A stretch of DNA of 64,000 nucleotides from Colwellia sp. 39_35_sub15_T18 (lineage in GTDB: Bacteria; Pseudomonadota; Gammaproteobacteria; Enterobacterales; Alteromonadaceae): NCBI GenBank assembly GCA_002162675.1, contig MAAE01000025.1, positions 62,001 through 126,000 of the forward strand. The letters are read 5' to 3'. The notes under the pieces are model-generated. The model made no database searches, was not told where the DNA came from, and worked only from the letters and a program-made list of their open reading frames with translations. This document shows, piece by piece, positions 30,231-50,849 of the stretch. Each line of letters opens with the position of its first letter. The first letter of the stretch is position 1. The translations under genes were made by a program, and so were the position numbers.

Positions 30231-30291
30231 AGACTTTTTTAAGGCAAAAAAAAACTGCAATAAGTAGGTTTCAAATCTTACCTAAGTAATG

Positions 30292-30401
30292 TGGCTCCCA
30301 GCTTTTTATAAGAAAATGGGCTCGAACCAGTGACACATGCATTTACTTAAGGTAAGTAGTTAAAGAGTACAGTCCATCGCTCTACCAACTGACAATTGGG
30401 A
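30292..30401 (-). pseudogene. Degenerate tRNA-Asn-like gene with expanded anticodon arm
   Basis: Read on the minus strand: TCCCAAT acceptor, D-arm GTCAGTTGGTAGAGCG, ATGGACTGT, an insertion of about 25 bases where TTAATCC is expected, then GTGTCACTGGTTCGAGCCC and a 3' end GGGAGCCA with encoded CCA. It is about 110 nt rather than 76, has extra bases before the 3' acceptor and a mismatch in the T stem. The sequence blocks point to tRNA-Asn (GTT) ancestry. It probably does not make a working tRNA. Confidence 0.65.
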
Positions 30402-30420
30402 ATAAGTATTTTTAGACAAT

Positions 30421-30452
30421 AAAAAAGGCCATGATTTCTCGTAGCCTTTTTT
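30421..30452. terminator. Terminator between tRNA-like copies
   Basis: AAAAAAGGC and GCCTTTTTT form a 9-bp stem with a 14-base loop, T-rich on both strands. It lies between two tRNA-like copies, as terminators do in tandem tRNA arrays. Confidence 0.6.
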
Positions 30453-30457
30453 ATTTT

Positions 30458-30475
30458 ATGTGGCTCCCAGCTTTT
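30458..30475 (-). pseudogene. 3' end of a tRNA-like copy, cut by the prophage
   Basis: ATGTGGCTCCCAGCTTTT repeats the 3' end of the copy at 30289-30306, then switches at base 30476 to TGTAACC, the proposed prophage left end. The rest of this copy should lie beyond the right end of the prophage. Confidence 0.65.
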
Positions 30476-30659
30476 TGTAACCAGTCATTAAGAATGAGAA
30501 ATACCGAGATAATCTAAAAATTGGCGGAAATTTGTGGGAAGGCTTTATTTAAAGGGTTTTAAAGATAAATTTAGGAAGGTTTTAAAAATTGTTTTAAAAT
30601 GAGAAATTAAAGACGATTTAAAGGGCTAGGGGTTTAAATCGCTTAAAATGGGAAACTTA
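30476..30659 (+). promoter_or_regulatory. Prophage left end with three transposase-binding-like repeats
   Basis: The core ATGRGAAA, preceded by a TTAA-rich block, occurs at 30494, 30599 and 30648. The first sits at the same distance from the end as L1 of Mu, and its register (TGTA...CATTAAGAATGAGAAA) can be aligned with the Mu end. The first two copies are 105 bp apart and the next two 49 bp, close to the L1-L2-L3 layout of Mu. The third overlaps the stop codon of the lipoprotein gene. Confidence 0.7.
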
Positions 30660-30983
30660 GCAATAAGCTTTTCCTAATTCTACCCAGTTACCTGACTTTA
30701 CTTTTACCACGTCAATAATCTGAACAGTTTTATTTTTAGCTATACCATGCTCACGAAGTACCTCGCACACATACATAGCATAGCCTTTTTGGTTAGTTCC
30801 ATTATCAATCACACCAACTTTGAATAACTTCCCAGTAGCCCATAATGCATCTAATGCTTTTGCTTCACTGCTGCTTTTAAAGTGTTGTTTAACAGCTTTA
30901 TATGCGCCTACTGTCGTGTCTATCTTGTCACCACAGCCAGCGAGTGCTAGAACTAAAATTAAGTAAATTACTTTCTTGTACAT
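30657..30983 (-). CDS. Small lipoprotein, lysogeny-expressed candidate
   Basis: A 108-residue protein with a lipoprotein signal (MYKKVIYLILVLALAGCG, lipobox LAGC). The mature part has cysteines near the middle and at the C-terminus (YVCEVL, KAYC) that could form a disulfide. I chose the ATG at 30983, seven bases after AAGGA. It lies 16 bp downstream of the repressor gene on the same strand, so it should be transcribed in the lysogen. Family unknown. A surface role such as superinfection exclusion or host conversion is inference from position only. Confidence 0.75.
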   Translation of the reverse strand: MYKKVIYLILVLALAGCGDKIDTTVGAYKAVKQHFKSSSEAKALDALWATGKLFKVGVIDNGTNQKGYAMYVCEVLREHGIAKNKTVQIIDVVKVKSGNWVELGKAYC

Positions 30984-30999
30984 AAACATATCCTTGTTA

Positions 31000-31764
31000 T
31001 TAGTATAAATCTTTACCAATCCAAACAACTTTACCAATGATGGCTAGTTGCTCTAGTTCGTTTTCTTTTACTATTTGCTCGTCATACTCTTTGTTATCGC
31101 TGATTAAGCATACAGAGCCGTCAAAGCGTTTTTGTAGGCGTTTGGCGTAGAGTTCTTGGCCAAAACGTAGTACGTAGATAGAACCGTCTTTTAATTGAGT
31201 GTCAGATAAGTCTACTAATATGCTGTTGCCGTTATGGATGGTTGGCTCCATCGAGTCGCCGTGAGCGAATACAACGGCTAGGTCTTTAGCGTTAAGTTTT
31301 CTAAACCTTAGCCACTTGCTACGAAAAGCTAGCTGACGCTTAATTTCTGCATCACCATTCAATGCGCCATGGCCTGTGCTTACAGATACATGATAGCCAG
31401 GTATAAGCACATACTCTTCATTAAATTCAGCTACGTCAACGATGGCACAGCCGTAAGAATTATCAGATTTATCAGCAGGACTAACATCTCCAGACACACC
31501 TTTAATAAGCCAATTGAAGTTTACTTTAGCCTCCATAGCTATTTTCTCAACAACACTTAGTTTTGGATCTTCACCTTTTAGAATTCTGCGTAAAGTACCT
31601 TCAGATACATCAATTCTTGACGCAAAAGCTCGTATGCTGTCAGGTTTTATTGCCTGTTCTACTCTACTCGCTAGAGATCCGTTTCTATTATTAAGTAAGG
31701 GATCACAGATCCCTTTCTTATCATCCCGATCCGTTGTATTACTTTTTTCTTTTAAATCAGTCAT
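31000..31764 (-). CDS. Prophage repressor, HTH plus S24 peptidase (CI/LexA type)
   Basis: A 254-residue repressor. An N-terminal HTH (about 42-65, IRAFASRIDVSEGTLRRILKG) is followed by a LexA-like autoprotease with catalytic S171 in HGDSMEPTI and K208 in ELYAKRL. This architecture predicts RecA-stimulated self-cleavage and SOS induction, unlike the repressor of Mu itself. It is divergent from the Ner-like gene across a region with palindromic operators. No strong ribosome site precedes the ATG. Confidence 0.9.
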   Translation of the reverse strand: MTDLKEKSNTTDRDDKKGICDPLLNNRNGSLASRVEQAIKPDSIRAFASRIDVSEGTLRRILKGEDPKLSVVEKIAMEAKVNFNWLIKGVSGDVSPADKSDNSYGCAIVDVAEFNEEYVLIPGYHVSVSTGHGALNGDAEIKRQLAFRSKWLRFRKLNAKDLAVVFAHGDSMEPTIHNGNSILVDLSDTQLKDGSIYVLRFGQELYAKRLQKRFDGSVCLISDNKEYDEQIVKENELEQLAIIGKVVWIGKDLY

Positions 31765-31786
31765 TTGTTTGTTTTCTTATTCGTGG

Positions 31787-31908
31787 TGCGTAAAAAACGA
31801 AACGGATCGCGTAATATATATTGCAATGCGCAAGAAACGGATCTAATATGTTCCATAAGTTACGCAATGCGTAATTTATTAAATGCGACAAAACTTACGC
31901 ATTGCGAA
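31787..31908. promoter_or_regulatory. Operator region with TTACGCA/TGCGTAA palindromes
   Basis: The clearest sites are TTACGCAATGCGTAA (31860-31874, perfect), TTACGCATTGCGAA (31895-31908) and ATTGCAATGCGCAA (31820-31833), with half sites GTGCGTAA near 31786 and CGCGTAA near 31809. They lie between the divergent repressor and Ner-like genes, where Mu has its operators and transpositional enhancer. They probably bind the repressor, the Ner-like protein, or both. Confidence 0.8.
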
Positions 31909-31938
31909 CATTTAAGATAATAACATGAGTTTATATTT

Positions 31939-32166
31939 ATGCAGATAGAAAAAGCAAATCATATACATGCAGCACTCCTTGCTCAGGGCATGAGTTGCAG
32001 GTCTTGGGCTATTTCTAATGGTTATAAGCCAAGAACTGTACAGAAGTATGTGCAGTGGTTTGCCCCTGAAACAGGGCGAAAGCCAAAGCGTAAGTTAGCT
32101 ATAGAAATATTAACAAAGCTATCAGAAACAATTGGTTTTGATTTAATAGGAGTAAAACATGGCTAA
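31939..32166 (+). CDS. Ner-like small HTH protein
   Basis: A 75-residue basic DNA-binding protein; residues 20-40 (CRSWAISNGYKPRTVQKYVQW) can form an HTH. It is the first early gene, directly before MuA and overlapping its start by 8 bp. The position and size match Ner of Mu, which turns down early and repressor transcription. Sequence alone does not prove the Ner family. Confidence 0.7.
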   Translation: MQIEKANHIHAALLAQGMSCRSWAISNGYKPRTVQKYVQWFAPETGRKPKRKLAIEILTKLSETIGFDLIGVKHG

Positions 32167-34441
32167 GGATTGGTTCACAGCATTAGAAATTTCTGACTTA
32201 CCAGGGACACCAAATAACGCTAGAAATATTCGCTTGAAAGCAGCGAAAGAAAGTTGGCAAAAAAGGAAGTGTTCTGTTGGTAAAGGTCATGAATACCACA
32301 TCAATTCTTTACCACAAGCTACGCAGCAATTTTTAGCCAAGCAAGCGGCTCAAACGTTAGTTGAAACTAATACCGCACCAGTATTATCAGCGCGACAGCT
32401 GGCGGCAGAGTTAACACGTCAAGCTGTTGTTGATAAAGAGCAAAAACAAGCGGTAAAAGTGCAGGGTGCTATAGATTTTAATTGTTTACCTAAAAAGTCA
32501 CAAACAAGAGCTGAAGCTAAGCTACTGATCATGAAAGCTTATGAGGTTTATATCGTGCCACACAAATCTGTTGGTAAAGAAGTTGATGGCTTACACCAGT
32601 TTTTAACTGAATATAAAGCTCGTTCGCTTGAATTGCCGCAGTGGATTTATAGCGCGGTTAAAACTATTTCAAAGAACTTTAAGTACCGTTGGAAAAATCA
32701 TCTTGATAACGGAGGCTTGTCTGCCTTAGCAGGAAACTACACGAGCACTCGTGGTAAATCAGTTATTAACCAACAAGACGAAGTTGAGCAATTTTTAATG
32801 GGTTTTTTATGCAAAATGCCTCATCTAGCTAGTAAGCCTAAAGCCATTCACCAGTCGTTAGTAGTAATGCAGCAAACCGATTATCCGTACTGGGAAATTC
32901 CTTCAATAAGCAGCGTGCAACGTTGGGTAAATAGTTGGGTAAGAAAGCATAGCGCTGAATTTGCCTTCGTCACTAACCCTGATGCTTATAACAGTAGTCA
33001 TAGACCTTTATATGGTACTGCTTATATGCACCAACGCCTTGCAGCACCCAATGATATTTGGGAGTTCGATTCAACCCCTGCCGATGTCATGCTTAAAGAT
33101 GGCCGTCATAGCATTATTGCCGTTATTGATGTTTTTACTCGTCGCGTTAAATTATGGGTAGCGAAAACATCAAACAGCGAGGGTATTTGTTTACTACTGC
33201 GCAAAACCATACTTGATTGGGGCATGCTCAATGAAGATGGCTTAGCGGTTACTGATAATGGTAGTGATTATGTTAGTAAGCGTGTTGGTGCTTTGTTTGA
33301 CATGCTTGAAAATAATCAGCACAGAACTAAAGCCTATTCAGGTTGGGAAAAGCCCTTTGTTGAACGTTTTTTCAGAACGTTAAGCCACTCTATTGTTGAA
33401 AAACTACCTAGTTATATTGGTCACAATGTTTCAGACAGAAAACAAATTGAAGCAGCAAAAAGCTTTGCTGAGCGTATTAGTAAAAAAGAAACTCGTGATG
33501 ATAAAAAAGTTGAGGAGTTAAAGCTTACCAGTACTGAACTACAGCAATTCTTTGATGAATGGATGGAGTATAACTATCACCACAGCGTACATAGCGAGTT
33601 AGGTGATACGCCTTTTAATATCTATCAGCAATCTGCATATCAACCACGCATGATAACTAACCCAGATGCACTCAACTTACTGCTTAACTTTATTGGTGAA
33701 GCAACGGTTATACGCGGCATTGTTAAAGCCGGTAGCGTGAAATATACCGCCCCTGAATTGATGGAAGCCGTATGGGATCGCAAAAAAGTACGAGTATTTA
33801 TTGATCCAAGTGATGTTGGCCGCGCGGTTTTATATCCACTTGATGCTATTGGTGAAGATACCAGTTGGATAGAGGCCGTTAACCAAGAGCTAATTGGCAA
33901 CGAGATCAGTCCACAAGCCTTTGCTGAACGTCGTAAAGCTGAACGTAAAGTACTGAGTAAATTTCGAAAATCCGCAAAAGAATATGCTGAAATATTTGGT
34001 ATTGATGATATTCACGCCAAAGAATTGGCCTACCACAAAGCCCAGAACAGCAGCTTAGCGGCATTTCCTAAACCTAGTTTACCTAATGAAAATGGCATGT
34101 TGTCAGCACTTGATGATTACAAACCTATTTCAGCCATAGGCGATGACAATGATAAACCTAATTATAGCGAAGCTGAGCTTACTGCTATTGCTGCAAGACG
34201 TGAACAGCGTAGCCGACAGCAAGCAATGACGGCTGAAAATAACGCCAAATTGACTCGCTCAGAATTAGAAATTGCCTGGGAACATGCCCGTAAATCAGTG
34301 CATACAGCATTAACGGAAAAAGAAAATAAATGGTTTAAAGATTATTTGCGTAGCCATGTCATGGCAGCGAGAAGAATTAACAAATTTTTAGAAGAAGCAC
34401 GCCACCAAACAGACTCGAACCTAACTGGTGACGCGCTTTAA
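32159..34441 (+). CDS. Transposase A (MuA-like DDE recombinase)
   Basis: A 760-residue transposase that integrates and replicates the phage. The N-terminal Mu-type DNA-binding domain (DWFTALEISDLPGTPNNARN) is followed by further HTH regions, the catalytic core with D304 (WEFDSTPAD), D366 (VTDNGSDY) and E402 (KPFVERFFRT), spaced as DD35E, then a Mu-transpos_C beta-barrel and a charged C-terminal region likely to contact MuB. AGGAG precedes the start. Confidence 0.96.
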   Translation: MAKDWFTALEISDLPGTPNNARNIRLKAAKESWQKRKCSVGKGHEYHINSLPQATQQFLAKQAAQTLVETNTAPVLSARQLAAELTRQAVVDKEQKQAVKVQGAIDFNCLPKKSQTRAEAKLLIMKAYEVYIVPHKSVGKEVDGLHQFLTEYKARSLELPQWIYSAVKTISKNFKYRWKNHLDNGGLSALAGNYTSTRGKSVINQQDEVEQFLMGFLCKMPHLASKPKAIHQSLVVMQQTDYPYWEIPSISSVQRWVNSWVRKHSAEFAFVTNPDAYNSSHRPLYGTAYMHQRLAAPNDIWEFDSTPADVMLKDGRHSIIAVIDVFTRRVKLWVAKTSNSEGICLLLRKTILDWGMLNEDGLAVTDNGSDYVSKRVGALFDMLENNQHRTKAYSGWEKPFVERFFRTLSHSIVEKLPSYIGHNVSDRKQIEAAKSFAERISKKETRDDKKVEELKLTSTELQQFFDEWMEYNYHHSVHSELGDTPFNIYQQSAYQPRMITNPDALNLLLNFIGEATVIRGIVKAGSVKYTAPELMEAVWDRKKVRVFIDPSDVGRAVLYPLDAIGEDTSWIEAVNQELIGNEISPQAFAERRKAERKVLSKFRKSAKEYAEIFGIDDIHAKELAYHKAQNSSLAAFPKPSLPNENGMLSALDDYKPISAIGDDNDKPNYSEAELTAIAARREQRSRQQAMTAENNAKLTRSELEIAWEHARKSVHTALTEKENKWFKDYLRSHVMAARRINKFLEEARHQTDSNLTGDAL

Positions 34442-34486
34442 CTAGAGTAAACGCCCGAAAGGGCAATCACACTAAGGATAATACCT

Positions 34487-35206
34487 ATGAAATTGAAAAC
34501 TGTCGAAGTAAAAAACGTTTTACGCTGTGAAGAGTTGTTTGACAACTTAAATAGCCGTAGTGCAATTGTTGAAGGCATAGGCCTTGTACATGGTCCGAGT
34601 GGCTTTGGTAAAACAACCACCATGACCTGGTTATTCAACCAAGATCATGTAGATGCTATCTATGTTCGCTGCCGTGCGACTGATACCCCGTCATCATTAT
34701 TAACCAAAATTGCCTTTGAAATGGGGCTTGAGCCTAAATACCCGTTAGGCCGTATGGTTGACGATATTGTTGAACGTATGCGTTACAAAGAATTGTCATT
34801 GTTTATTGATGAAGTTGATTACGTGATTGGCTCTACTCGTATTATGGAGTCACTACGCGATATTTACGACTTAACCCAACAGCCAGTACTACTTATAGGT
34901 ATGGATCAAATTGCACGCCGCATAAGCCATCGTAAACAACTATTTAATCGTATTAGTGAATGGATTGAATTTAAACCGGCTGATTTGGAAGACGTTGCAC
35001 TATTTGCCGATGAGCTGTTAGAAAATGAAATTCGCTTATCAGAAGACTTACTTGACGCTATACAGAGTAAAGCTAATGGTGAAGTTCGCCGTATTTTATC
35101 TGCTTTAGAGAAAATAGAGCGTAAAGCCATTGCTGCAGACCGAGACAAAATTTCATTAGATGATGTAGATATTCGTGAAATATTCCTTGATAGCCGCCGC
35201 CGCTAA
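34487..35206 (+). CDS. MuB-like AAA ATPase target selector
   Basis: A 239-residue ATPase with Walker A HGPSGFGKTTT (about 35-45), Walker B LSLFIDEVDYV (about 103-113) and a sensor region LLIGMDQIARR. MuB binds target DNA, stimulates MuA and gives target immunity. The N-terminus is short compared with MuB of Mu, as in B3-like phages. It follows transposase A after 45 bp. Confidence 0.92.
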   Translation: MKLKTVEVKNVLRCEELFDNLNSRSAIVEGIGLVHGPSGFGKTTTMTWLFNQDHVDAIYVRCRATDTPSSLLTKIAFEMGLEPKYPLGRMVDDIVERMRYKELSLFIDEVDYVIGSTRIMESLRDIYDLTQQPVLLIGMDQIARRISHRKQLFNRISEWIEFKPADLEDVALFADELLENEIRLSEDLLDAIQSKANGEVRRILSALEKIERKAIAADRDKISLDDVDIREIFLDSRRR

Positions 35207-35243
35207 ACTCCACTAAAACAAGTATTAAAAGAAGTAATTAAAA

Positions 35244-35837
35244 GTGAAAACAAACAATAAAAATCAAGTATGTCAAAGGATTTGGCAGTACATGCTTGCA
35301 AAGGATTGTTTAGTTAGCAGCCTTGAAGTTGCTAAAGAGCTAAAAATATCAGTTAACCATTGTCGCAATGTACTAAATGGTTTTGTTCAACAAAAATGTG
35401 CAGTAAAGCAAAAAGTAGGTCGTATTTATCACTTTGCCGTTATTGCTGCATCAAAACCAATACTAACAGCAGGTAGAAGTACTGTTTCAAAACGTCAATA
35501 CAAGAAAACAGGCCGTCAAAAAATTTGGAACAGCTTAAAAATTCAACGAGTTGTTTCTGTTGCGGATCTAGTTTGCCTTGCTGCTGTTACAGAGGCAAAT
35601 GCAAGTTTGTACCTTCGTAAATTAGTTAACTCAAGCTATGTACGCGTTAAGTATGCCGTCAATACAGCCTTACCTAATTGTGAAGTTAAGGGGAGAGCCA
35701 GTACTTATCAATTACTAAGAGATACTGGGCGTTTATGTCCGATAGTTCGCAAAGATGGTTGTTGGGATCAAAACGAACAGCAACTTTATCCATTCAATGG
35801 AACGAATAAGGAAAATCATCATGATCAAGTGGCTTGA
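35244..35837 (+). CDS. Early phage protein with two winged-helix-like repeats
   Basis: A 197-residue basic protein I cannot name. Two similar segments (CQRIWQYMLAKDCLVSSLEVAKELKIS and RQKIWNSLKIQRVVSVADLVCLAAV) look like duplicated winged-helix motifs, so it probably binds DNA. It starts at a GTG. It lies between MuB and another small HTH protein in the early operon. Confidence 0.65.
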   Translation: MKTNNKNQVCQRIWQYMLAKDCLVSSLEVAKELKISVNHCRNVLNGFVQQKCAVKQKVGRIYHFAVIAASKPILTAGRSTVSKRQYKKTGRQKIWNSLKIQRVVSVADLVCLAAVTEANASLYLRKLVNSSYVRVKYAVNTALPNCEVKGRASTYQLLRDTGRLCPIVRKDGCWDQNEQQLYPFNGTNKENHHDQVA

Positions 35838-36360
35838 AGTACTTCGTCAACAGGTAGCTGAAAGCGGACAACCTAAGGTTGCCAAAATGCTTGGTGTATC
35901 CACTGCCTGTATATCTCAGGTAGTTAATGAAAAATATCCAGGAGATATGCAACGTATTGAAAAGTTAGTTGAAGGGGCATTTTTACAACGGTGTGTTAAT
36001 TGCCCTGTGTTAGGTGAATTAGCTTTGCATGAGTGTATGCAGCATCAAGCACGTAAAGGAATTTCAAGTAATCCTCTTTATATGCAGTTGTATAAGTCCT
36101 GCCGTAGTGGCTGTCCACATAGCAGTTTAACTGAACGATTAAAGCGTCCAGTGAACATTGCTTTTGATGCTACTAGAACGGTTAAAAGCTATGACTATCA
36201 AAGTGCAGTTCGCCGGTTAACACGACAAGCTGATGGCGCCAATAGCTTTGCTACAGCTCAGCACTTAAACGAGCTACTCATCAGTGAATTAGAAGTGCTA
36301 GGTATTAAATACAACCGCTTAATTAAAGGTATTGGTAAAAAGGAAAATAATAATGATTAA
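35821..36360 (+). CDS. Early phage HTH protein with cysteine cluster
   Basis: A 179-residue protein from the ATG at 35821 (AAGGAAAA upstream; the track's earlier start lies in the previous gene). Residues 15-40 (PKVAKMLGVSTACISQVVNEKYPG) form a Cro/C1-type HTH. Further on RCVNCPVLG, HECMQHQ and SCRSGCPHS give a five-cysteine, histidine-rich patch that could bind zinc or an iron-sulfur cluster. Likely an early regulator; the exact role is unknown. Confidence 0.7.
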   Translation: MIKWLEVLRQQVAESGQPKVAKMLGVSTACISQVVNEKYPGDMQRIEKLVEGAFLQRCVNCPVLGELALHECMQHQARKGISSNPLYMQLYKSCRSGCPHSSLTERLKRPVNIAFDATRTVKSYDYQSAVRRLTRQADGANSFATAQHLNELLISELEVLGIKYNRLIKGIGKKENNND

Positions 36361-36622
36361 AAGCAGGCAACAACATAATAAACAAAACAACTTGATCATT
36401 AAACAGATGAACAAGGCACAACGTGCGATTAGCGATTTAATCAGCAAAGGCATCACGGTATTAAACGTAGAAATGGCACGCCAAAAGCCACGTATTGAAA
36501 TACAAGCACCGCGTAGTGAGTTACCTAGTGAAACCTTAGTTATTCGTGGCACTAAAAACGGCATACGAGAAGACATTAATTTTAGCACCCTAAATGGCTG
36601 CATCATCTTTTGGAAAATATAG
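36353..36622 (+). CDS. Small early phage protein, unknown
   Basis: An 89-residue basic protein starting at 36353 after AAGGAAAATA, overlapping the end of the previous gene by 8 bp. An amphipathic helix (MNKAQRAISDLISKGITVLNV) is followed by a short beta-rich half. I do not recognise the family. Confidence 0.6.
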   Translation: MIKSRQQHNKQNNLIIKQMNKAQRAISDLISKGITVLNVEMARQKPRIEIQAPRSELPSETLVIRGTKNGIREDINFSTLNGCIIFWKI

Positions 36623-36633
36623 GAATGATAGAA

Positions 36634-37278
36634 ATGACAGAACAAGCAGTAAAAAACACAGCACTAACAGCAACACAAGTGCCAGCAGGCTATCGTACTA
36701 ATGCCGCAGGCCACTTGGTGCCTGAATCAAAAATTGATGCCATTGATCTGCTTCGTGACGAATTGGTGAAAGAGTTAACCGCTGAGGCACAAGCTATCGC
36801 CAAGCAGCTGCAAGAGTTCAAGGTAAAAGCTTTGATGCGCATTCAAGACTTTATTGACTTAAGCGCGCAAACCTATGGCCAACAAATCGGTGGTAAAAAA
36901 GGTAATGCCAGCCTAGTTAGCTTTGATGGCAACCAAATGCTCAAACGTAGCATAAACGAAAATATAACCTTTGATGAGCGCTTAATTGTTGCCAAATCGT
37001 TAATTGATAATTGTATTCATGAATGGACACAAGGCGGCAATGACAACATTAAAGCCTTGATTGAGCATGCTTTTCAAACCGATAAAGAGGGCAATATTTC
37101 AGTTACCCGTATTTTAGGTTTACGTCGACTAGATATTGAAGACGAACAGTGGTTAAAAGCTATGGAGGCCATTGCTGATTCAATCTCAATTACTGGCTCT
37201 AAAACCTATCTGCGCTTATATCAACGTAATGCTAAAGATGCCATGGAGCAAATTAGTTTAGACATTGCTAACGCATAA
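36634..37278 (+). CDS. DUF3164 family phage protein
   Basis: A protein of about 214 residues typical of the early region of Mu-like phages: VPAGYRTNAAGHLVPESKI at the N-terminus, LQEFKVKALMRIQDFIDLSAQTYG in the middle, and a C-terminal TGSKTYLRLYQRN. The family function is not established. I place the start at 36634, nine bases after AGGA; an ATG nine bases earlier is possible. Confidence 0.85.
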   Translation: MTEQAVKNTALTATQVPAGYRTNAAGHLVPESKIDAIDLLRDELVKELTAEAQAIAKQLQEFKVKALMRIQDFIDLSAQTYGQQIGGKKGNASLVSFDGNQMLKRSINENITFDERLIVAKSLIDNCIHEWTQGGNDNIKALIEHAFQTDKEGNISVTRILGLRRLDIEDEQWLKAMEAIADSISITGSKTYLRLYQRNAKDAMEQISLDIANA

Positions 37279-37311
37279 GGCGCGATTACTATTTAGTAAC
37301 AGGAGTGAGTT

Positions 37312-37533
37312 ATGAAACACGGTTTAGAAATTATTGAAGAGATTGGCGCGGCTACTAAAGCTCAAGAAAAGCACGGCACGGTAATGTGTGAGGATGCCAC
37401 GTTTGAAGAGGGCGTAATAGCCGCCTTGCTTTGGGTAATAGGTAGTGAAGGCCAAACAAGCTTAATGGTGGAATGTCTTGAAGAGTTTGAGCAAGCCAAT
37501 GGCTTTGAAAATGCAAAAGAGGTAGCAGCATGA
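37312..37533 (+). CDS. Small early phage protein, unknown
   Basis: A 73-residue acidic helical protein with AGGAG before the start. It overlaps the next gene by 4 bp (ATGA), and its last residues (EVAA) are the same as those of the next gene, as if the junctions were duplicated. Family unknown. Confidence 0.6.
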   Translation: MKHGLEIIEEIGAATKAQEKHGTVMCEDATFEEGVIAALLWVIGSEGQTSLMVECLEEFEQANGFENAKEVAA

Positions 37534-37736
37534 GTTTAGTTGAATTTGGTGAAAAATTTCCTATTGGCACTAAGGTGAAATACTTCCCTCTTGCTACCAA
37601 TAGTTACTTTGAAGAAAGTGAAATAGCATCAGAGCCCTGGCTACTTGGGCATGGTGAAGTTGTTGTGAAATTGAAAGGAAAGTCAGGCTGTTATGGCACT
37701 GAGCATATTGAATTAAATGAAGAGGTAGCAGCATGA
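37530..37736 (+). CDS. Small early phage protein, unknown
   Basis: A 68-residue protein coupled to its neighbours by ATGA overlaps at both ends. It looks mostly beta (TKVKYFPLATNSYF, GHGEVVVKLKGKSG). It may be a modulator of a host enzyme, but nothing in the sequence says which. Confidence 0.55.
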   Translation: MSLVEFGEKFPIGTKVKYFPLATNSYFEESEIASEPWLLGHGEVVVKLKGKSGCYGTEHIELNEEVAA

Positions 37737-37900
37737 GTCAACCAAGCCATGAGCAAAAGCAAGCTATTACTATGATGTTTGCTAAAAAAATGCAACATAA
37801 AGCAACGCAAGACAGGTCAGATATGGCGGCAGTATCAAGGCGCAGGCGTATTGAAGCATTAGAAGAGCAAAAGCGCTTTGATGCTGAGTTTGCCTTGTGA
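37733..37900 (+). CDS. Very small early phage protein, 55 residues
   Basis: Not in the ORF track. It begins with an ATGA overlap with the previous gene and encodes MSQPSHEQKQAITMMF..., a highly charged helix (RSDMAAVSRRRRIEALEEQKR). The coupling and codon pattern support translation. Confidence 0.55.
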   Translation: MSQPSHEQKQAITMMFAKKMQHKATQDRSDMAAVSRRRRIEALEEQKRFDAEFAL

Positions 37901-37919
37901 TTTACCTTAACTAAGCGAA

Positions 37920-37962
37920 ACCCTGTTTCATTACAGGGTCTACCCAATGTGGTTATTGGGTA
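37920..37962 (+). promoter_or_regulatory. Two adjacent perfect hairpins
   Basis: ACCCTGT and ACAGGGT (loop 6 bases) and, one base later, TACCCAAT and ATTGGGTA (loop 6 bases). There is no T run, so they are more likely an RNA processing or attenuation site in the early transcript than a full terminator. The track's ATG at 37947 lies inside the second hairpin. Confidence 0.55.
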
Positions 37963-37991
37963 CTGATGAGCAGCCTTTGAGAGAAATATTG

Positions 37992-38132
37992 ATGGATATT
38001 ATTCAAGAATTACAAATAGCAGAAGTTATTAAACAATTAACCGATGACGGTATTAGCCATGGTGAGATACGTGTGCTTATTGAAGATCACATTGAATGGG
38101 TTTTGTCATCAATAGGTAATAAAAATGCGTAA
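37992..38132 (+). CDS. Small acidic early phage protein
   Basis: The start at 37992 (MDIIQELQIAEV, after GAGAG) is preferred to 37947, which is in a hairpin. The 46-residue helical protein overlaps the start of gemA by 8 bp. Family unknown. Confidence 0.5.
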   Translation: MDIIQELQIAEVIKQLTDDGISHGEIRVLIEDHIEWVLSSIGNKNA

Positions 38133-38796
38133 CCGATTAATACAGCTAGTTCATGTAGCCAAGCGAGAGCTTAACCTTGATGAAGACATTTACCGTAGCA
38201 TTTTAAACAATGTTACAGGCAAAAGCAGTTGCGCCAAAATGAGCATTAAAGAGCTTGAGCAAGTACTTGAACACTTTAAAAGTGTCGGCTTTACTGTGAA
38301 GAAAAAGCAAGTGAAAAAGAAAAGTAGCACTAACAAGCGAACAGCACCAAAGCTTAACCGTAGCGTATCACCAGAAAGTGGCAAAATTCGCGCTATTTGG
38401 ATAACCATGCACCAACAAGGCTTTGTGCGTGATGGCTCAGAGCAAGCCCTTGATAATTATATTAGCAGAATGCTTAACCGAAAAACGTTAGGTAAAAACA
38501 TCAGCTTTCATTGTCAGTTTTTAAACGGGCAACAAGCTTACAAGGTATTAGAAATCATTAAGAACTGGCACAAACGCGAGTTAATAAAGTGTCTTGATGA
38601 AAAATGGCAAGCGCTGCGTCTTCATAAACGCTTTACCTCATTAAGTCATTGTACTGCTTTGCTTTCAGGTAAAGCACCTAAACAAGAAAGTTATCAAAAC
38701 CTTTGTTTTATTTTTGATGAAGCTACAGGACAATGTGCTCCTGCATTGTCTAATCAGTCACATCCATGTGACGTAGGAGTAAGTAAAGAATTATGA
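38125..38796 (+). CDS. gemA: GemA-like protein (Mu gp16, DUF1018)
   Basis: The N-terminal domain (IQLVHVAKRELNLDEDIYRSILNNVTGKSSCAKMS, split across helices) and the C-terminal IRAIWITMHQQGFVRDGSEQALDNYISRM match the DUF1018/GemA family of Mu-like phages. Mu GemA affects host gene expression and DNA supercoiling. A Lys-rich linker joins the halves. There is an extra C-terminal stretch of about 50 residues beyond the core. Confidence 0.85.
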   Translation: MRNRLIQLVHVAKRELNLDEDIYRSILNNVTGKSSCAKMSIKELEQVLEHFKSVGFTVKKKQVKKKSSTNKRTAPKLNRSVSPESGKIRAIWITMHQQGFVRDGSEQALDNYISRMLNRKTLGKNISFHCQFLNGQQAYKVLEIIKNWHKRELIKCLDEKWQALRLHKRFTSLSHCTALLSGKAPKQESYQNLCFIFDEATGQCAPALSNQSHPCDVGVSKEL

Positions 38797-39326
38797 AATT
38801 AGGCAGATGTCCAACGTGTCACGCCGCTGTTCACGTTGATGCCATGGTTCAGGATGAAGCAGGTAGAGAATTAATGGCCACACTGGCTAAATTGAATAGT
38901 AAAACGGGCAGTAGTGTTTTGCAATATGTAGGTTTATTTCGCCCAGCTAAAAGTGATTTAAACAATGGCCGAGCGTTAAAGTTACTTACCGAAGCATTAG
39001 AGTTAACCCCTAATTTACAATTACTTTCGGCTGGTTGTGATGCAACTGTGCGCAATATTCATGGTAAACGTAGCTCTTCACAAGGAACGGGCGAAACCGT
39101 TAAACCGTTAACCAATCACAACTACTTAAAACAAGTTTTAACAGGGCTTAAAGAGCAGTTTAATCACCCCGTTAACGGCATGAAAAGTGGTGCTAAAAAA
39201 GCAACTGATATGGGTAATGCTCAAGTCAAACATTACCACACGTTAAGTGATGTTGAGAATGAGCGTCTTCGCCAGGAACAATTAGCCAAGTTTAAAGTAA
39301 GTAAAAGAGCAGGAGAAAGCGCATGA
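38793..39326 (+). CDS. Phage protein with N-terminal CxxC motif, unknown
   Basis: A 177-residue protein starting MKLGRCPTCHAAVHVD, possibly half of a zinc ribbon, followed by helical and basic regions. Coupled to gemA and mor by ATGA overlaps. The position just before the Mor-type activator is usual for such phages, but no function is known to me. Confidence 0.65.
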   Translation: MKLGRCPTCHAAVHVDAMVQDEAGRELMATLAKLNSKTGSSVLQYVGLFRPAKSDLNNGRALKLLTEALELTPNLQLLSAGCDATVRNIHGKRSSSQGTGETVKPLTNHNYLKQVLTGLKEQFNHPVNGMKSGAKKATDMGNAQVKHYHTLSDVENERLRQEQLAKFKVSKRAGESA

Positions 39327-39742
39327 GCCAGCAAGAATCGTTAACCCTTGATTTAGGAAGTGATGACAACCTCAATGATTTATTAGCGCATAGCGACAGC
39401 TTGGCCAATGATGACCTCGCATGGCCTAAAATGTTAGCTGACTTAATTACCGTTAATGTTGCCGAACTAAAAGATGATGGCTTTGAACATAACGAAGCAT
39501 GGCGTATTGCCAAACGTTTGATCATACGTCAATCACACTTCTTAGGTGGTGGCATGGTCTATTTACCACGTAACGACAAACTTAAAAAAGCCTTGCGTGA
39601 TGCCAATTTGTACCATGATTTTAATGGCCATAACCACAGGGCGTTAATGAAAAAATATGATCTTACTCAGCAATCGGTTTATCAGATATGTGCAGAGCAA
39701 CGTCAGTTGTTCATTGATAAGAGGCAGGGGAAGTTGTTTTGA
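39323..39742 (+). CDS. mor: Mor-type transcriptional activator
   Basis: A 139-residue member of the Mor/C family. The dimerisation region (WPKMLADLITVNVAEL), the GGGMVYLPRND turn and a C-terminal HTH (ALMKKYDLTQQSVYQICAEQR) are typical. In Mu, Mor and C bind just upstream of promoters that lack a -35. No second Mor/C gene is seen here, so this protein probably drives both late promoters found at 41993 and 50850. Confidence 0.9.
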   Translation: MSQQESLTLDLGSDDNLNDLLAHSDSLANDDLAWPKMLADLITVNVAELKDDGFEHNEAWRIAKRLIIRQSHFLGGGMVYLPRNDKLKKALRDANLYHDFNGHNHRALMKKYDLTQQSVYQICAEQRQLFIDKRQGKLF

Positions 39743-39942
39743 TTCACTCTTGGATAAAAGTTGTTGATGAATTACCAAATGAAAGCTGCGAAGTATTAGC
39801 ATTTTTTAATACTCTAGGGTGCCAAGCTAAAGCAATTGTTTGGTATTCATCAGTGAAGCAAGAGTTCTTGTCATTAGAATGTGATGAAAAGTTAAGTATA
39901 CCAACGCATTGGATGTACTCACCAAATGAACCTAATCGCTAA
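39739..39942 (+). CDS. DUF551-like small protein
   Basis: 67 residues with the DUF551 pattern: HSWIKVVDELPNESCEVLAFF at the start and PTHWMYSPNEP at the end. It starts at a TTG that overlaps the mor stop (TTGA). DUF551 proteins are frequent in phage accessory segments; function unknown. Confidence 0.65.
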   Translation: MIHSWIKVVDELPNESCEVLAFFNTLGCQAKAIVWYSSVKQEFLSLECDEKLSIPTHWMYSPNEPNR

Positions 39943-39994
39943 ATAATGGGCGTGACAGTCACGCAAAAAAAACGATAACTAACAAGGTGTCACG

Positions 39995-40351
39995 ATGAAA
40001 AAAGAACAGGCAGAAGCTGAGAAAGCAAGAATACGAGAACAAGCACGTTTACGCAAGCAAAAACAACGGGCTAAAAAGGCTGAGCTAGTGGTGAAAACCT
40101 TGGAAGTAAACGCCAGTGCTACCGAGCAACAGCAACTTAATGAGCAAGCTATAACGCGAGGCTTTGATAGTATCAGTGAATATTTAATGACACTGATGCG
40201 TATTGATGGTGATCGCATTGAACATGATCAAGCAGCTATTGGTACTTGCAATAGTTGTAAATTGCCATTACCACAAGGCTGTAACGCTGTTTTTAAAGGG
40301 CAGTTTGATTGTAGTTATATTCATGGCTTGCCGTTGATGAGTGTTAAGTAG
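39995..40351 (+). CDS. Ribbon-helix-helix-like protein with Cys-rich tail
   Basis: 118 residues. A charged N-terminal helix (EAEKARIREQARLRKQKQR) leads into a segment like ribbon-helix-helix repressors (LEVNASATEQQQLNEQAITRGFDSISEYL, split). The C-terminus has CNSCKLPLPQGC and FDC, a possible zinc site. It may be a DNA-binding regulator. Not assigned to a named family. Confidence 0.6.
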   Translation: MKKEQAEAEKARIREQARLRKQKQRAKKAELVVKTLEVNASATEQQQLNEQAITRGFDSISEYLMTLMRIDGDRIEHDQAAIGTCNSCKLPLPQGCNAVFKGQFDCSYIHGLPLMSVK

Positions 40352-40425
40352 CTGTTATTATCCTCAGTGTTCACACCTTGAATCGTATGTAAATCACCCA
40401 AATCCCACTTAAATCCCACATTAAG

Positions 40426-40454
40426 TTGAATTGAAAAACGTTAATGTTTAATAT
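40426..40454 (+). promoter_or_regulatory. Sigma-70-like promoter of the moron cassette
   Basis: TTGAAT and TAATAT are separated by exactly 17 bases. The promoter lies in the non-coding gap before the three-gene cassette and about 90 bp before its first start codon. Confidence 0.6.
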
Positions 40455-40484
40455 TCGCTTATCAAATATATGTAAACAAATCCT

Positions 40485-40510
40485 AAACACTTACTTTTAA
40501 GTAGGTGTTT
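40485..40510 (+). promoter_or_regulatory. 12-bp hairpin in the moron leader
   Basis: AAACACTTACTT and AAGTAGGTGTTT pair over 12 bases (one G-T) around two T residues. It lies between the promoter and the AAGGAG ribosome site of the first cassette gene. It could be an operator, an RNA stabiliser, or the terminator of the early operon. Confidence 0.6.
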
Positions 40511-40543
40511 CATTTTGAATTGTTCAAGGAGTTAATTATTTCA

Positions 40544-41044
40544 ATGGAAGCCTCAAATAAAATTCAGGGAATATTGCCGCCAGTGTTCATGGAAAAAGTA
40601 AGAAATGGACAAATTAAAGGTATGCCTACAGAATTACGAGACAATTTATTAAATGGGAAAATTAAAGGCTTACCACCAGAAATAATAGAAGCTTTCGAAG
40701 CTGGTACAGTTAATCAAGGGATCCCTCCTGAAGTTTTGGAAAAAATGGGTAATGGTCAAATGAAGCCAGGCATACAGCACAGAAGAGCTTCAAAGTATTC
40801 TGTTGAGTCGGTAACTGGTGCTGTATGCCACCAATTGAATGATAATAGGCTTGAATTATCATTTTACGCAGATCGCCCTGTTTGTGAATTTGAACTTCTT
40901 CCAGCCCTAGGAGAAAAAGGTGGTGAAATACATAGCGTTCCAACAAAAGAACATGTTACTGCTATAAACGTTTCATTAGATGATTTGAAAAATATACATG
41001 AAATGCTTTCAACTGTAATTGATAGAATGGAGCAAAGTAAATAA
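40544..41044 (+). CDS. Moron gene 1: 16-residue repeat protein
   Basis: 166 residues from the ATG at 40544 (AAGGAG is 12 bases upstream; the track's GTG start is in a hairpin). Residues 8-72 hold four repeats of about 16: PPVFMEKVRNGQIKGM, PTELRDNLLNGKIKGL, PPEIIEAFEAGTVNQGI, PPEVLEKMGNGQMKPG. The C-terminal 85 residues look like an alpha/beta domain ending in a helix (VSLDDLKNIHEMLSTVIDRM). No signal peptide. I do not recognise the family. Its stop overlaps the next start (TAATG). Confidence 0.7.
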   Translation: MEASNKIQGILPPVFMEKVRNGQIKGMPTELRDNLLNGKIKGLPPEIIEAFEAGTVNQGIPPEVLEKMGNGQMKPGIQHRRASKYSVESVTGAVCHQLNDNRLELSFYADRPVCEFELLPALGEKGGEIHSVPTKEHVTAINVSLDDLKNIHEMLSTVIDRMEQSK

Positions 41045-41616
41045 TGCAAAGCATTGTTTCTACAAGCACCAAAGAATACGCTAATGATACTTCAATGGAT
41101 AATACTTTGATTTCATTAAGTTCAACTTCAATATCGTCTATTGCTTCAGTTAGTTCTATTTCAGTTGGGTCAGGAGTGACTTCTAGGACAATCTCATCTG
41201 TTGGTTCTGCAGGGATAATGGGAGCTGCATTGGCTGCATTCATTGCAGTTAATCCAGCCTTACCCCTTAAATTTAATGAACTAATATCTTTAGATTCATC
41301 TATAATGAGTGAAGCAAAGGAAAAAGATTCTTTTGTAGATAATATGCTACAAGTTAAAAGTACAAATGTGCTTGAGACTACTACTCTGACAGAGAGAGTT
41401 GCGATGGAAAATGATTTAGTCAAAAAAGAAAAGATATTAAAGCTAGGGGTTAATATTTCTTCGCTTGGCTGCATTCTTTTAGTTGGGGCTGCCGTATCAG
41501 GCATTCTTCCTGCTCTTACATGGATACCTGGGGCATTTTCAGCAGCAGGAGTCTTACTTTCTTGTGGCATTCAATTAAATAAAGTGGATGAAAAACGCAA
41601 AGGGTTGAGCACATAA
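41044..41616 (+). CDS. Moron gene 2: Ser/Thr-rich membrane protein
   Basis: 190 residues. The first 55 are almost all Ser, Thr, Ile and Val, then AGIMGAALAAFIAVNPALPL is hydrophobic; residues 140-180 form one or two membrane segments (LGVNISSLGCILLVGAA, ILPALTWIPGAFSAAGVLL). A charged stretch separates them. It is coupled to gene 1 and followed after 1 bp by gene 3. Family unknown; the pattern suggests an inner membrane effector or anchor. Confidence 0.65.
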   Translation: MQSIVSTSTKEYANDTSMDNTLISLSSTSISSIASVSSISVGSGVTSRTISSVGSAGIMGAALAAFIAVNPALPLKFNELISLDSSIMSEAKEKDSFVDNMLQVKSTNVLETTTLTERVAMENDLVKKEKILKLGVNISSLGCILLVGAAVSGILPALTWIPGAFSAAGVLLSCGIQLNKVDEKRKGLST

Positions 41617-41617
41617 A

Positions 41618-41893
41618 ATGGCTTTTTTAGAACCATTGTTAAATTTTTTTCCTAATTTAGTTAAATCATTAACAAAAGCATTTCCAAAAAGTGATAATCA
41701 TAAGCTTAATATGATTTTTGATATATTGGGCTTTGTTGTCTTGATTGTTCTTGCGGGTATGTGGTTTGATAAAATGCCTAAAGTTACATTCGAGCAATCA
41801 AGCCAAATAGCGGAACTTTTAGCATATCCTTTTGTCTTTTGGTTTGTCTTTTCTTTGATTTGTTATTTAACGACATTATTTAAATCAAAATAG
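41618..41893 (+). CDS. Moron gene 3: small two-helix membrane protein
   Basis: 91 residues with two membrane helices (FDILGFVVLIVLAGMWF and LAYPFVFWFVFSLICYLTTLF) and a short loop between. The topology also fits a holin, and the endolysin gene follows, but a strong terminator and the late promoter lie between, so it is not in the lysis operon. Taken with genes 1 and 2, an accessory membrane system is more likely. Confidence 0.6.
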   Translation: MAFLEPLLNFFPNLVKSLTKAFPKSDNHKLNMIFDILGFVVLIVLAGMWFDKMPKVTFEQSSQIAELLAYPFVFWFVFSLICYLTTLFKSK

Positions 41894-41902
41894 TTATTCA
41901 AT

Positions 41903-41928
41903 AAAAAGCCTTTAGTTAGGCTTTTTTA
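41903..41928 (+). terminator. Strong terminator closing the moron cassette
   Basis: AAAAAGCCT and AGGCTTTTTT pair around TTAGTT, with six T residues. It isolates the cassette from the late operon. Confidence 0.92.
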
Positions 41929-41992
41929 TTGCCTTAAATTTATCAAATAAGTTAAATTCGTTATTAGACTATCCATTTAAAATAGATTCAGA

Positions 41993-42049
41993 AGCATTAA
42001 TGCTGTTGAATCTCACCTAACTTAACCATGCCGCCATACTGGCGGCATG
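41993..42049 (+). promoter_or_regulatory. Late promoter element 1 (before endolysin)
   Basis: AGCATTAA at -54 and TGAATCTCA at -40 relative to the start codon, then a dyad CATGCCGCCA-TAC-TGGCGGCATG whose last three bases are the ATG. CATACT in the dyad could be a -10 box placing transcription start at the ATG. The same element precedes the gene at 50904 at identical spacing. It holds the place of Plys in Mu and is probably activated by the Mor-type protein. Confidence 0.75.
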
Positions 42050-42613
42050 AAACAAAATAACCTACCACATAAAATATTACTCGTTGATGATTCGCTACCA
42101 CCGGTAGCGAGTCAGGCCATTCTACGCATCCTTGAAGAAGAAAAAGGTTACGTTAATAACCCTAATGATAAAGGTCTTGAAACCAAGTATGGTATCACTA
42201 AACGCTGGTATCCAACCCTTGATATTAAAAACCTCACCTCAGTAAAAGCTTCGAAAATTTATTATCGTGATTATTGGTGTTTCAATAAGTGCGATAAGTT
42301 GCCGCAAGATATTGCCTTAACGCTTTTTGATAGTGCCGTAAACCAAGGGGGGAACTTCGCCCGTAAAGCTTTGCAACAAACTTTAAACGTTAAAGCAGAC
42401 GGTATTATTGGCAGTAAAACTATTGCGGCTGCCTTTGCTGCTCCTAGCCTTATTTTAATTACACAATTTACCCGATTGCGTTGCCAGCAATATACTAATT
42501 TAGTTCAAGCTGATATTAGCCAAGTTGAATTTATTGAAGGTTGGGTTGATCGCGCCTTAGATATTCTCCTTGAATGCCAGATAATTGCCGTATTTGGTGG
42601 TGATGCCCCATGA
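42047..42613 (+). CDS. Endolysin, glycoside hydrolase 108 type
   Basis: 188 residues. The GH108 signature is EEEKGYVNNPNDKGLETKYGI split around the catalytic glutamate, then TKRWYP, YRDYW and LFDSAVNQGGNFARKALQQ, followed by a C-terminal peptidoglycan-binding domain (VKADGIIGSKT). It has no secretion signal, so it needs a holin. The first 22 residues (MKQNNLPHKILLVDD...) precede the domain and overlap a second perfect hairpin (42089-42113). No other in-frame ATG, GTG or TTG is near, so the ATG in the dyad seems to be the start. Confidence 0.9.
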   Translation: MKQNNLPHKILLVDDSLPPVASQAILRILEEEKGYVNNPNDKGLETKYGITKRWYPTLDIKNLTSVKASKIYYRDYWCFNKCDKLPQDIALTLFDSAVNQGGNFARKALQQTLNVKADGIIGSKTIAAAFAAPSLILITQFTRLRCQQYTNLVQADISQVEFIEGWVDRALDILLECQIIAVFGGDAP

Positions 42614-42879
42614 CTCACGCCTTTAATTCAATCAAAGCCCGTAAACGATACTTTGAAGGTCGCCAAGCACGACTGCGCAAAGAAGTATTTAGCCGTTTGC
42701 AAGATTTACCTATTAATTACAGCTGTGTTTATCTTCGCCCTGAACATGCACGGCAGTACCGTCGTGGTTGGGATAGTGTCACGGCAATAGATATTGATGT
42801 AGCCGTTAAAAAAGTAAAAGCAGGTCAAGCCAAGTTACTACCTGAAACGCCACGCGTCCTTGGAGTGAATCATGCCTAG
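42610..42879 (+). CDS. Small late phage protein, unknown
   Basis: 89 basic residues, coupled by ATGA to the endolysin gene and overlapping the next gene by 8 bp. Arg-rich helix first, then YSCVYLRPEHARQYRRGWDS. Unknown family. Confidence 0.6.
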   Translation: MTHAFNSIKARKRYFEGRQARLRKEVFSRLQDLPINYSCVYLRPEHARQYRRGWDSVTAIDIDVAVKKVKAGQAKLLPETPRVLGVNHA

Positions 42880-43291
42880 CAATAAAACGAGAAAACATAA
42901 AAAGTCGCCTTATTTTATTGGCCGAGTACTCACGCACTGGTTGGCGCTAGAGTCTCGAAAAATGTTACTAGAAGAATCGTTTTCTTTTGTAGATGGCAAA
43001 GGTATTAAGTGGACAGCTCCTGCTGGCTCTATTATTGATGGTGCCAGTATTCCTCGCATTTTTTGGTACTGCATTGGCTCGCCATTTAACGGTCATTACC
43101 GCCGTGCCAGCGTGATACATGATGTTTATTGTGTCACTAAATCACGCCCTCACAAGCAAGTACACCGTATGTTTTATGACGCTATACGCGCTGATGGCGT
43201 AAGAAAAAGTAAAGCAAAAGCTATGTATATCGCTTTGAAAATTGGCGCACCTCGTTGGAAAAATTACCAAGAAAAAAGGAAAGGAATATGA
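42872..43291 (+). CDS. DUF1353 family protein
   Basis: 139 residues with the DUF1353 hallmarks TAPAGSIIDGASIPRIFW, SPFNGHYRRASVIHDVYC and HRMFYDAIRADGV. DUF1353 proteins are common in lysis or tail regions of phages; the biochemical role is not settled. The conserved DGASIP and HD residues suggest an enzyme. Confidence 0.85.
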   Translation: MPSNKTRKHKKSPYFIGRVLTHWLALESRKMLLEESFSFVDGKGIKWTAPAGSIIDGASIPRIFWYCIGSPFNGHYRRASVIHDVYCVTKSRPHKQVHRMFYDAIRADGVRKSKAKAMYIALKIGAPRWKNYQEKRKGI

Positions 43292-43506
43292 AAAAGATAA
43301 CTTTAATGGTGTTAGTTGCACTCACTACTGCTTGCTCAAGCTATGAATTTGGCGATGTTTCACGTGTTTATTGTGCTACTACAAGCACTGAACTTCGAGC
43401 CCAAATTAAAGTCACGCTAAAAGAAAACGGGGTAAGTATTGGCGTTGATTACTGTGCCAGTGCTGGCTTAGTTGATGCCATTTTAATTAAAAGCCCTAAG
43501 GAATAA
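43288..43506 (+). CDS. Small lipoprotein, possible outer spanin
   Basis: 72 residues from the ATG at 43288 (AAGGAA upstream, ATGA overlap with DUF1353). The signal MKKITLMVLVALTTAC ends in a lipobox-like cysteine. The lysis-region location suggests an Rz1-like role, but it is not proline-rich and no embedded Rz is seen, so this is tentative. Confidence 0.6.
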   Translation: MKKITLMVLVALTTACSSYEFGDVSRVYCATTSTELRAQIKVTLKENGVSIGVDYCASAGLVDAILIKSPKE

Positions 43507-43508
43507 CC

Positions 43509-43739
43509 ATGACTGACGTAGTAGATAAAGCTTGTGAACTTGAACAAAAACAGCGTGAACAAGCATTAGCTGCGGCTAGAGTGACAATAGAAAAGCCTAA
43601 GGAATTACATGGTCATCGTTATTGCCTTGACTGTGATCTTGAGCTAGATACAAATCGCTTAATTGCTAACCCAAAAGCAGTGCGTTGTGTTGATTGTCAA
43701 ACCTTGCTTGAGCATAAAAATAAGAGGTTTTATCCATGA
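43509..43739 (+). CDS. TraR/DksA family zinc finger protein
   Basis: 76 residues. After an acidic N-terminal helix comes a C4 zinc finger, YCLDCDLEL ... RCVDCQTLLEH, the TraR/DksA C-terminal signature. Short members bind RNA polymerase in its secondary channel and change promoter choice. Such a gene is usual at this place in Mu-like phages. Confidence 0.85.
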   Translation: MTDVVDKACELEQKQREQALAAARVTIEKPKELHGHRYCLDCDLELDTNRLIANPKAVRCVDCQTLLEHKNKRFYP

Positions 43740-44038
43740 TTAATTGGTTGCTGAAGTATTACCCTTTGGTATTTTTAGTGTTTAACGGTGTGTTTTGGCT
43801 AATTGTTTATGTATTGCATAAAACCTATGCCAAGCGTGAATCAGTAGACAATTTAGAAAAAGAGGTGCTACTGATTAAAACCAACATTAATAACCTGCCT
43901 GATAAAGATTTAGTGCATAAGTTAGAGCTGCGTATTGAAGAATTAAGCGGTGACATTAAGCGAATAGAACCAGGGCTTATCTCTGTTAAAAATTTATCTG
44001 ACATGTTGTTAGAAAACGAGTTGAAAAGTAAAGGCTAA
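43736..44038 (+). CDS. DUF2730 family membrane protein (Mu gp25-like)
   Basis: 100 residues: one N-terminal membrane helix (YYPLVFLVFNGVFWLIVYVL), then a coiled coil (VDNLEKEVLLIKTNI...KLELRIEELSGDIKRI). Location and shape match Mu gp25. The type II or inner-spanin-like topology would fit a lysis function, unproven. Confidence 0.75.
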   Translation: MINWLLKYYPLVFLVFNGVFWLIVYVLHKTYAKRESVDNLEKEVLLIKTNINNLPDKDLVHKLELRIEELSGDIKRIEPGLISVKNLSDMLLENELKSKG

Positions 44039-44050
44039 AAGGAAAAAACA

Positions 44051-44344
44051 ATGGCGATAGACAAAGTAATGAGCGAACACCAACGACTATCAATTTTATT
44101 AGCTCTTGGCGCAATGAATGGTTACCAAACTAATGATTCAATGCTGCAAAGTGCTTGTGCGGCTTATGGTCATACCATGAGCAATGACCGAGTGTTAAGT
44201 CATTTAGCCTGGTTAAAAGAACAAGGTTTAGTGTCATTAGAAAGCAATGGCGCCTACACCATGGCAACTTTATCAGGTCGTGGCCAAGATGTAAGCAACG
44301 GTATGGCTACTTGCCCAGGTGTTAAAAAACCGAGGGCTAAGTAA
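44051..44344 (+). CDS. Mu gp26-like, ArsR/winged-helix-like protein
   Basis: 97 residues. The middle (DRVLSHLAWLKEQGLVSLESNGAYTMATLSGRGQDVSNG) looks like a winged helix with its wing, as in the VpaChn25_0724-type phage proteins placed between DUF2730 and DUF3486 in Mu-like phages. Function unknown. Confidence 0.75.
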   Translation: MAIDKVMSEHQRLSILLALGAMNGYQTNDSMLQSACAAYGHTMSNDRVLSHLAWLKEQGLVSLESNGAYTMATLSGRGQDVSNGMATCPGVKKPRAK

Positions 44345-44622
44345 TGGCTAAAATTAAAGCTTTTACTGCAGGTGAAAAACGAGTTTTTCACAAGTTAGCT
44401 TTAGCAATGATTGCTGCAGAAATAGAAAGCCAAGTAATTAAACCTGCGACTGAAAAGGAAACGGGTAAGCCATATCAGTCAAAAGGCGGTTATTTAGATA
44501 TTTATTTAAAGAGTGATCCAACAGTTAAGCGTGTTTGGAATGCTTTTCAAAAAGAAGTTCAAAAGGTTCGTAGTGACTATTTAAAATATGCGGAGGCAGA
44601 GAAAGCTAATGAAGGAACGTAA
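44344..44622 (+). CDS. Small late phage protein, unknown
   Basis: 92 residues, basic, helical, with a TAATG overlap with the previous gene. It lies between gp26-like and gp27-like genes, where Mu has no extra gene of this kind. Family unknown. Confidence 0.6.
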   Translation: MAKIKAFTAGEKRVFHKLALAMIAAEIESQVIKPATEKETGKPYQSKGGYLDIYLKSDPTVKRVWNAFQKEVQKVRSDYLKYAEAEKANEGT

Positions 44623-46794: not shown

Positions 46795-46796
46795 CT

Positions 46797-48419: not shown

Positions 48420-48421
48420 TT

Positions 48422-50665: not shown

Positions 50666-50849
50666 TGCTACTCAATGATTTAACTCAAAGCCCTGTAAGC
50701 GATTTTATCGCCTTAAGTTGTAAATCTGGTATATTGCCCTAAGAAATTTAAACAAATTCAACTGAGAGGTTTTTAAACGGGTGTTAAATGGGTGTGTTGA
50801 TTGAATATAACTACCTAGAGATTACCCCTTAAGAAAACAACTTGAATTT

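Follow-up and report, generated by a model that had tools for sequence, protein, structure and literature searches.

Bacteriophage Mu is the textbook random integrator. Transposable prophages in general are described as near-random in their choice of site, with conserved locations within one species being ascribed to clonality or benefit (PMC6776037, PMC8705779), and no report of oriented recurrent sites of Mu-like phages was found in open-access text. The closest described phage to the element analysed here is Shewanella vB_SspS_MuM16-1 (MZ568827), with a transposase that is 42% identical. As MuM16-1 virions carry variable host ends, transposition during lytic growth does not use specific sites in this family (PMC8541194). 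The window, the 64,000 bp stretch of DNA that was analysed, comprises bases 62001-126000 of a 326,915-bp contig. The joint reading that best explains the data, and that we hold to be highly probable, is that the window contains the left end of a Mu-like prophage whose integration is target-directed, with the more weakly drawn addition that a winged-helix protein selects the target. The prophage end itself belongs to a known kind; oriented recurrent integration is the surprising part.

The host repeat ends at 30475 and TGTAACC, the start of the prophage, begins at 30476. The right end is in the same contig, 4.7 kb past the window (window-equivalent 68701), at a locus marked by a 99% identical copy of the left host repeat. 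The right junction reads ...TTTTTTTCGCGCGGCTACA/CTTTTATAAG and, in a longer reading, ...CTCGTTTTTTTCGCGCGGCTACA/CTTTTATAAGAAAATGGG (the slash marks the junction), with the right terminus, GGCTACA, followed by CTTTT at L008:8703-8707 (L and G numbers are our own designations). The prophage is therefore 38,226 bp in length with TGTA...TACA termini, of the TG/CA type. A near-identical phage, with a transposase 99% identical, is present in the metagenomic contig L033, where the left junction, GTGACACATG/TGTAACC, is 32 bp to the right of the site used by the window prophage. L033 reads through the window insertion point with one CTTTT, a natural empty site, and the window flanks when joined with one CTTTT match L033 with zero mismatches across the join. 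L172, from the same sample as L033, supplies the right end of the L033 phage, with ACATG. The left boundary is fixed because several independent observations, namely the right end, the CTTTT duplication and the empty site, agree on position 30476 to the base. The initial annotation had placed the boundary at this base, and had predicted a CTTTT host duplication, TG/CA termini and inverted motif copies at the right end; all are present, the inverted copies as R1 (ACGAGAAA) and R2 (ATGAGAAA), at 19 and 41 from the right end, respectively. The uninfected relative that it proposed for comparison is provided by L033. Termini, duplication and empty site are thus established at the level of sequence.

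Table 1. Features of the prophage and of its host flank, in window coordinates
Feature	Coordinates	Strand	Remarks
Host target, degenerate tandem copy of tRNA-Asn gene unit	30289..30475	-	30304-30468 repeated at 99% just right of prophage
CTTTT, left copy of 5-bp target duplication	30471..30475	.	same 5 bp after right terminus; single copy in L033
Prophage, part in window	30476..64000	+	continues to window-equivalent 68701
L1, outermost MuA-type site	30481..30502	+	22-bp frame from prophage base 6, as in Mu
L2, MuA-type site	30586..30607	+	prophage base 111, as in Mu
L3, MuA-type site	30635..30656	+	prophage base 160; Mu 151
Accessory lipoprotein-like gene between L3 and repressor	30657..30989	-	PHROG 7191
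Repressor, HTH + S24 (LexA-like) peptidase domain	31000..31764	-	
Operator/enhancer-like region, TTACGCAATGCG-type repeats between repressor and ner	31765..31938	.	putative role, from position
Ner-like small HTH protein	31939..32166	+	position as ner in MuM16-1
MuA-type DDE transposase, Mu DNA-binding domain + integrase core	32159..34441	+	
MuB-type AAA+ ATPase without N-terminal HTH	34487..35206	+	AAA_22; PHROG 296 positions 299-522 only
Two-winged-helix protein, candidate target selector	35244..35837	+	
HTH protein, 201 aa, two genes after ATPase	35755..36360	+	PHROG 296 positions 216-280 (MuB N-terminal HTH segment)
DksA/TraR-type zinc-finger protein gene, phage late region	43509-43739		
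Mu-type portal protein	46797..48419	+	PF06074, 3.5e-99
Mu-type head protease (protein I)	50904..52130	+	PF10123, 1.4e-91

The genes of the prophage (Table 1) include a transposase with matches to PF02316 (4e-12) and PHROG 310 transposase (2e-95) and an rve match (3e-7) just under Pfam's cut-off. By homology with Mu, this MuA-type protein would bind the L and R sites, pair the ends, cut them and join them to a staggered target. Judged from its profile matches, MuB appears to be split, the AAA+ and HTH parts being encoded by two genes that flank the winged-helix gene (34487-36360). The TTACGCAATGCG-type repeats at 31765-31938 likely constitute an operator/enhancer. The accessory gene located between L3 and the repressor varies among relatives, L034 (L034:403-1349) and L035 (L035:396-1313) having sequences encoding DUF4145 proteins there. 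The late region contains Mu-type portal, F-like and I head genes. The transposase, MuB, the termini with their duplication, the end sites and the head genes support identification of the element as a complete 38,226-bp Mu-like transposable prophage; membership of the genus Muvirus is not indicated, as Mu is absent among the best transposase matches listed.

Intact tRNA-Asn genes are located 159 and 455 bp past the right end of the prophage, and the host array (30289-30475; L008:8703-9240) has degenerate, interrupted tRNA-Asn copies alongside intact ones. Insertions of the clade were collected by phage sequence alone, using MuA and patterns for the left and right ends. Five independent insertions are located within ~200 bp of the tRNA-Asn array, all in one orientation with the right end toward the 3′ end of the tRNA genes. 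They are the window prophage (CTTTT), L033+L172 (ACATG), L035+L175 (GCTGA at both ends; G328 has the empty site, at 189 bp from tRNA-Asn), L173 (AGAGC, right end only) and L176 (ACAGC, right end only), the last being 24 bp from L173. The sequence flanking L173 matches these arrays as found in Colwellia-like congeners. The L035 flank (L035:131-209) belongs to a short repeat that is dispersed in many copies across the genus. Five of the six clade insertions are therefore in one region, the exception being L034, which is not at tRNA-Asn but interrupts the gene I (L034:1-214) of another, related Mu-like phage, this gene being 87% identical to the gene I of the inserted phage itself. The hit L174 is a chance match. 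The clade reuses one region, downstream of the tRNA-Asn array and convergent with clpA, in one orientation, a recurrence that was beyond the reach of the initial annotation.

Recurrent sites are also present in related clades, here designated Aeromonas-like and Shewanella-like, labels that we presume from gene sequences and the names of related records. Five Aeromonas-like insertions (G130, L075, L131, L100, G697) are within ~240 bp of one transporter gene, L076 and L085 are 11 bp apart, and L107 and G703 are 10 bp apart. Three Shewanella-like insertions (G234, G766, G796) are on the upstream side of an acetate-symporter-like operon and 22-34 bp ahead of a conserved ACCTTAGTCTAAGG, three (G754, G757, G773) are between tRNA-Asn genes and uvrB, and G806 and G803a are at 63 and 85 bp, respectively, from tRNA-Pro. 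G005, G701 and G758 are without a shared site, and a scan of genome contigs added few new relatives. Duplications longer than 5 bp are present in L223/L237 (G757; 13 bp), L224/L238 (G773; 14 bp) and L220/L234 (G758; 9 bp), and there is no clean duplication in G754 and G766. G803 (L218/L232) has two prophages in one contig, one of them between right-end-like remnants beside tRNA-Pro. As comparison of left flanks with left flanks reveals only pairs in the same orientation, right flanks were also compared with left flanks; this right-versus-left comparison revealed no co-located pair in opposite orientations. In the E. coli control, Mu prophages are dispersed over malG, mhpC, arcC, pspG and other genes.

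Recurrent, oriented integration is well supported as a pattern, with its mechanism at the level of hypothesis. The repeated loci with one orientation argue that integration is target-directed rather than near-random. L034, the insertions without a shared site and the variable host ends of MuM16-1 virions weigh against this reading. Alternatively, a prophage with a Mu-like end might integrate near-randomly, the loci being hot spots made by the host or the positions at which lysogens survive best, as reported for Pseudomonas phage Ab30. Hot spots for Ab30 are in tandem repeats and at a distance of 55-61 bp from a REP-like palindrome (PMC5977238), the tandem tRNA-Asn array at the window site has a terminator hairpin, and hairpins are slightly enriched near the insertions (p 0.046), mainly at terminators. 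Ab30 has, however, no orientation bias and only ~5% of its insertions are at hot spots, whereas here all co-located pairs have the same orientation, hairpins are not a general feature, the clade is concentrated in one region, the Aeromonas-like transporter cluster sits inside a coding gene, and related phages of one genus use different loci. We consider this alternative unlikely. Candidate attractors were also evaluated and rejected. The best guide-like match between target and phage was 17 nt (E 0.59), transposase-end-like sequences are not enriched in the targets except at a resident prophage end (G803a), most relatives have no nearby tRNA, contrary to general tRNA targeting, and the weak signal for a hairpin hot spot is driven by the terminators. 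No motif common to the different Aeromonas-like target loci was found.

It is very improbable that each cluster goes back to one old insertion passed on with the chromosome. Some hosts are congeners, L115 and L127 differ by only 1 bp, and G116/L085 and G766/L111 each represent one event and were entered once in the count. Against inheritance, the insertion points, duplications and phages vary within clusters (CTTTT, ACATG and GCTGA; GTTTT and AAATC; GAAAA and ACTCT), and L033 carries the empty version of the window site. Unless the junction sequences are wrong, inheritance is untenable for the clusters at the symporter promoter and the transporter gene and for that in Colwellia.

The three motif copies at the left end are read as L1, L2 and L3, the putative binding sites of the transposase. 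The motif ATGRGAAA starts at 30494, 30599 and 30648, with spacings of 105 and 49, all as originally annotated. There are four copies on each strand of the whole 64 kb, and three of the four on the + strand are those at the left end, leaving a single + copy elsewhere; the probability of three on one strand within 184 bp by chance is ~6e-8. Counted in the 22-bp frame of the MuA consensus, the sites of the window prophage begin at L1=6, L2=111, L3=160, R1=6 and R2=28, and those of Mu at L1=6, L2=111, L3=151, R1=6 and R2=28, with an inverted R3 at 56. The positions agree with those of Mu to the base for L1, L2, R1 and R2, in support of the Mu-like spacing that had been proposed, and the distance from L2 to L3 is 49 bp rather than the 40 bp in Mu. 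The sequences had been considered different from those of Mu; they are not very different, with L1 having 14 of the 20 specified positions of the MuA consensus, a score reached by ~0.1% of window positions. Approximately 25 other left ends of relatives start with TGTAACC and have a similar layout with different flanks. In relatives, the L2 cores are mostly at 124-127 and the L3 cores at 166-178. In 15 of 18 phages, the cores at both ends have the same pair of variable letters (AG, AA, GC, TA, AC/AT), compared with a mean of 4.9 on shuffling (p 1e-5), as predicted by co-evolution with one transposase. Given this agreement between ends, the recurrence of the layout in relatives and the match to Mu positions, it is barely tenable that the motifs are promoter, packaging or chance repeats rather than transposase sites, even in an AT-rich region with further short repeats. 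That a tyrosine or serine integrase acted site-specifically at a tRNA gene, as the tRNA-Asn array might suggest, has next to no credence, with a DDE transposase present and no integrase identified among the scanned proteins, a 5-bp duplication that is different at each insertion and no att core common to phage and tRNA.

If integration is target-directed, the rapidly exchanged winged-helix gene after muB is a candidate for the target selector. In the Aeromonas-like phages, MuB proteins are mostly 97-99% and MuA proteins 85-98% identical, whereas the winged-helix types are only 42-54% alike. Phages with the same target tend to have the same winged-helix protein (75% versus 50% identity, permutation p 0.0001), with corresponding p values of 0.024 for MuA, 0.34 for MuB and 0.30 for the HTH protein, in a test that leans on the transporter-gene cluster for 10 of its 14 same-site pairs. 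As exceptions, G703/L107 and L076/L085 each have a common site and different winged-helix types. AlphaFold predicts two winged-helix domains (pLDDT 82), for which a structure search returned only generic winged-helix matches and no TniQ. More weakly, the protein might position the adjacent AAA+ MuB, which lacks the DNA-binding HTH present in Mu's MuB, as TnsD/TniQ places TnsC. It is possible, and proposed here tentatively, that a large group of Mu-like siphoviruses uses dedicated, oriented attachment regions picked by an exchangeable two-winged-helix protein that places the HTH-less MuB, with a gene swap moving the locus, and with random transposition kept for the lytic cycle. If true, a Mu-related family that returns to the same oriented loci would connect Mu with the way in which Tn7-like elements use target selectors, explain which genes such phages disrupt or spare, and supply Mu-type transposases with a targeting module that is natural and exchangeable. 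Target choice by MuB-type ATPases, an old question, would become testable through one small gene.

MuM16-1 and the window prophage have the same gene order, TGTAACC...GCTACA termini, L1, R1 and R2 positions, S24 repressor and muA-muB-winged-helix-HTH block. They differ in MuA (42%) and far more in the winged-helix gene, and integration by MuM16-1 is described by its authors as random, based on the variable virion ends (PMC8541194). Shared with Mu (NC_000929) are the L1, L2, R1 and R2 positions, TG/CA termini, 5-bp duplication, MuA/MuB logic and Mu-type head genes. The core is, however, CGAAA in Mu and ATGAGAAA in the window prophage, in which L3 is 9 bp further, no inverted R3 was seen, the MuB HTH is a separate protein, the repressor is of the S24 type and the target site is recurrent. 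Ab30 similarly has insertion hot spots near particular DNA features, and differs in the REP consensus of these sites as well as in the orientation and frequency noted above (PMC5977238). No TnsA, TniQ or TnsD domain matches were found in the scanned early proteins; the likeness to Tn7-like transposons with TnsD/TniQ is one of behaviour rather than membership. As in those transposons, a DDE transposase has an AAA+ partner and there is a recurrent locus, beside tRNA or other genes, that is entered in one orientation, whereas here the insertion points are spread across tens to hundreds of bp.
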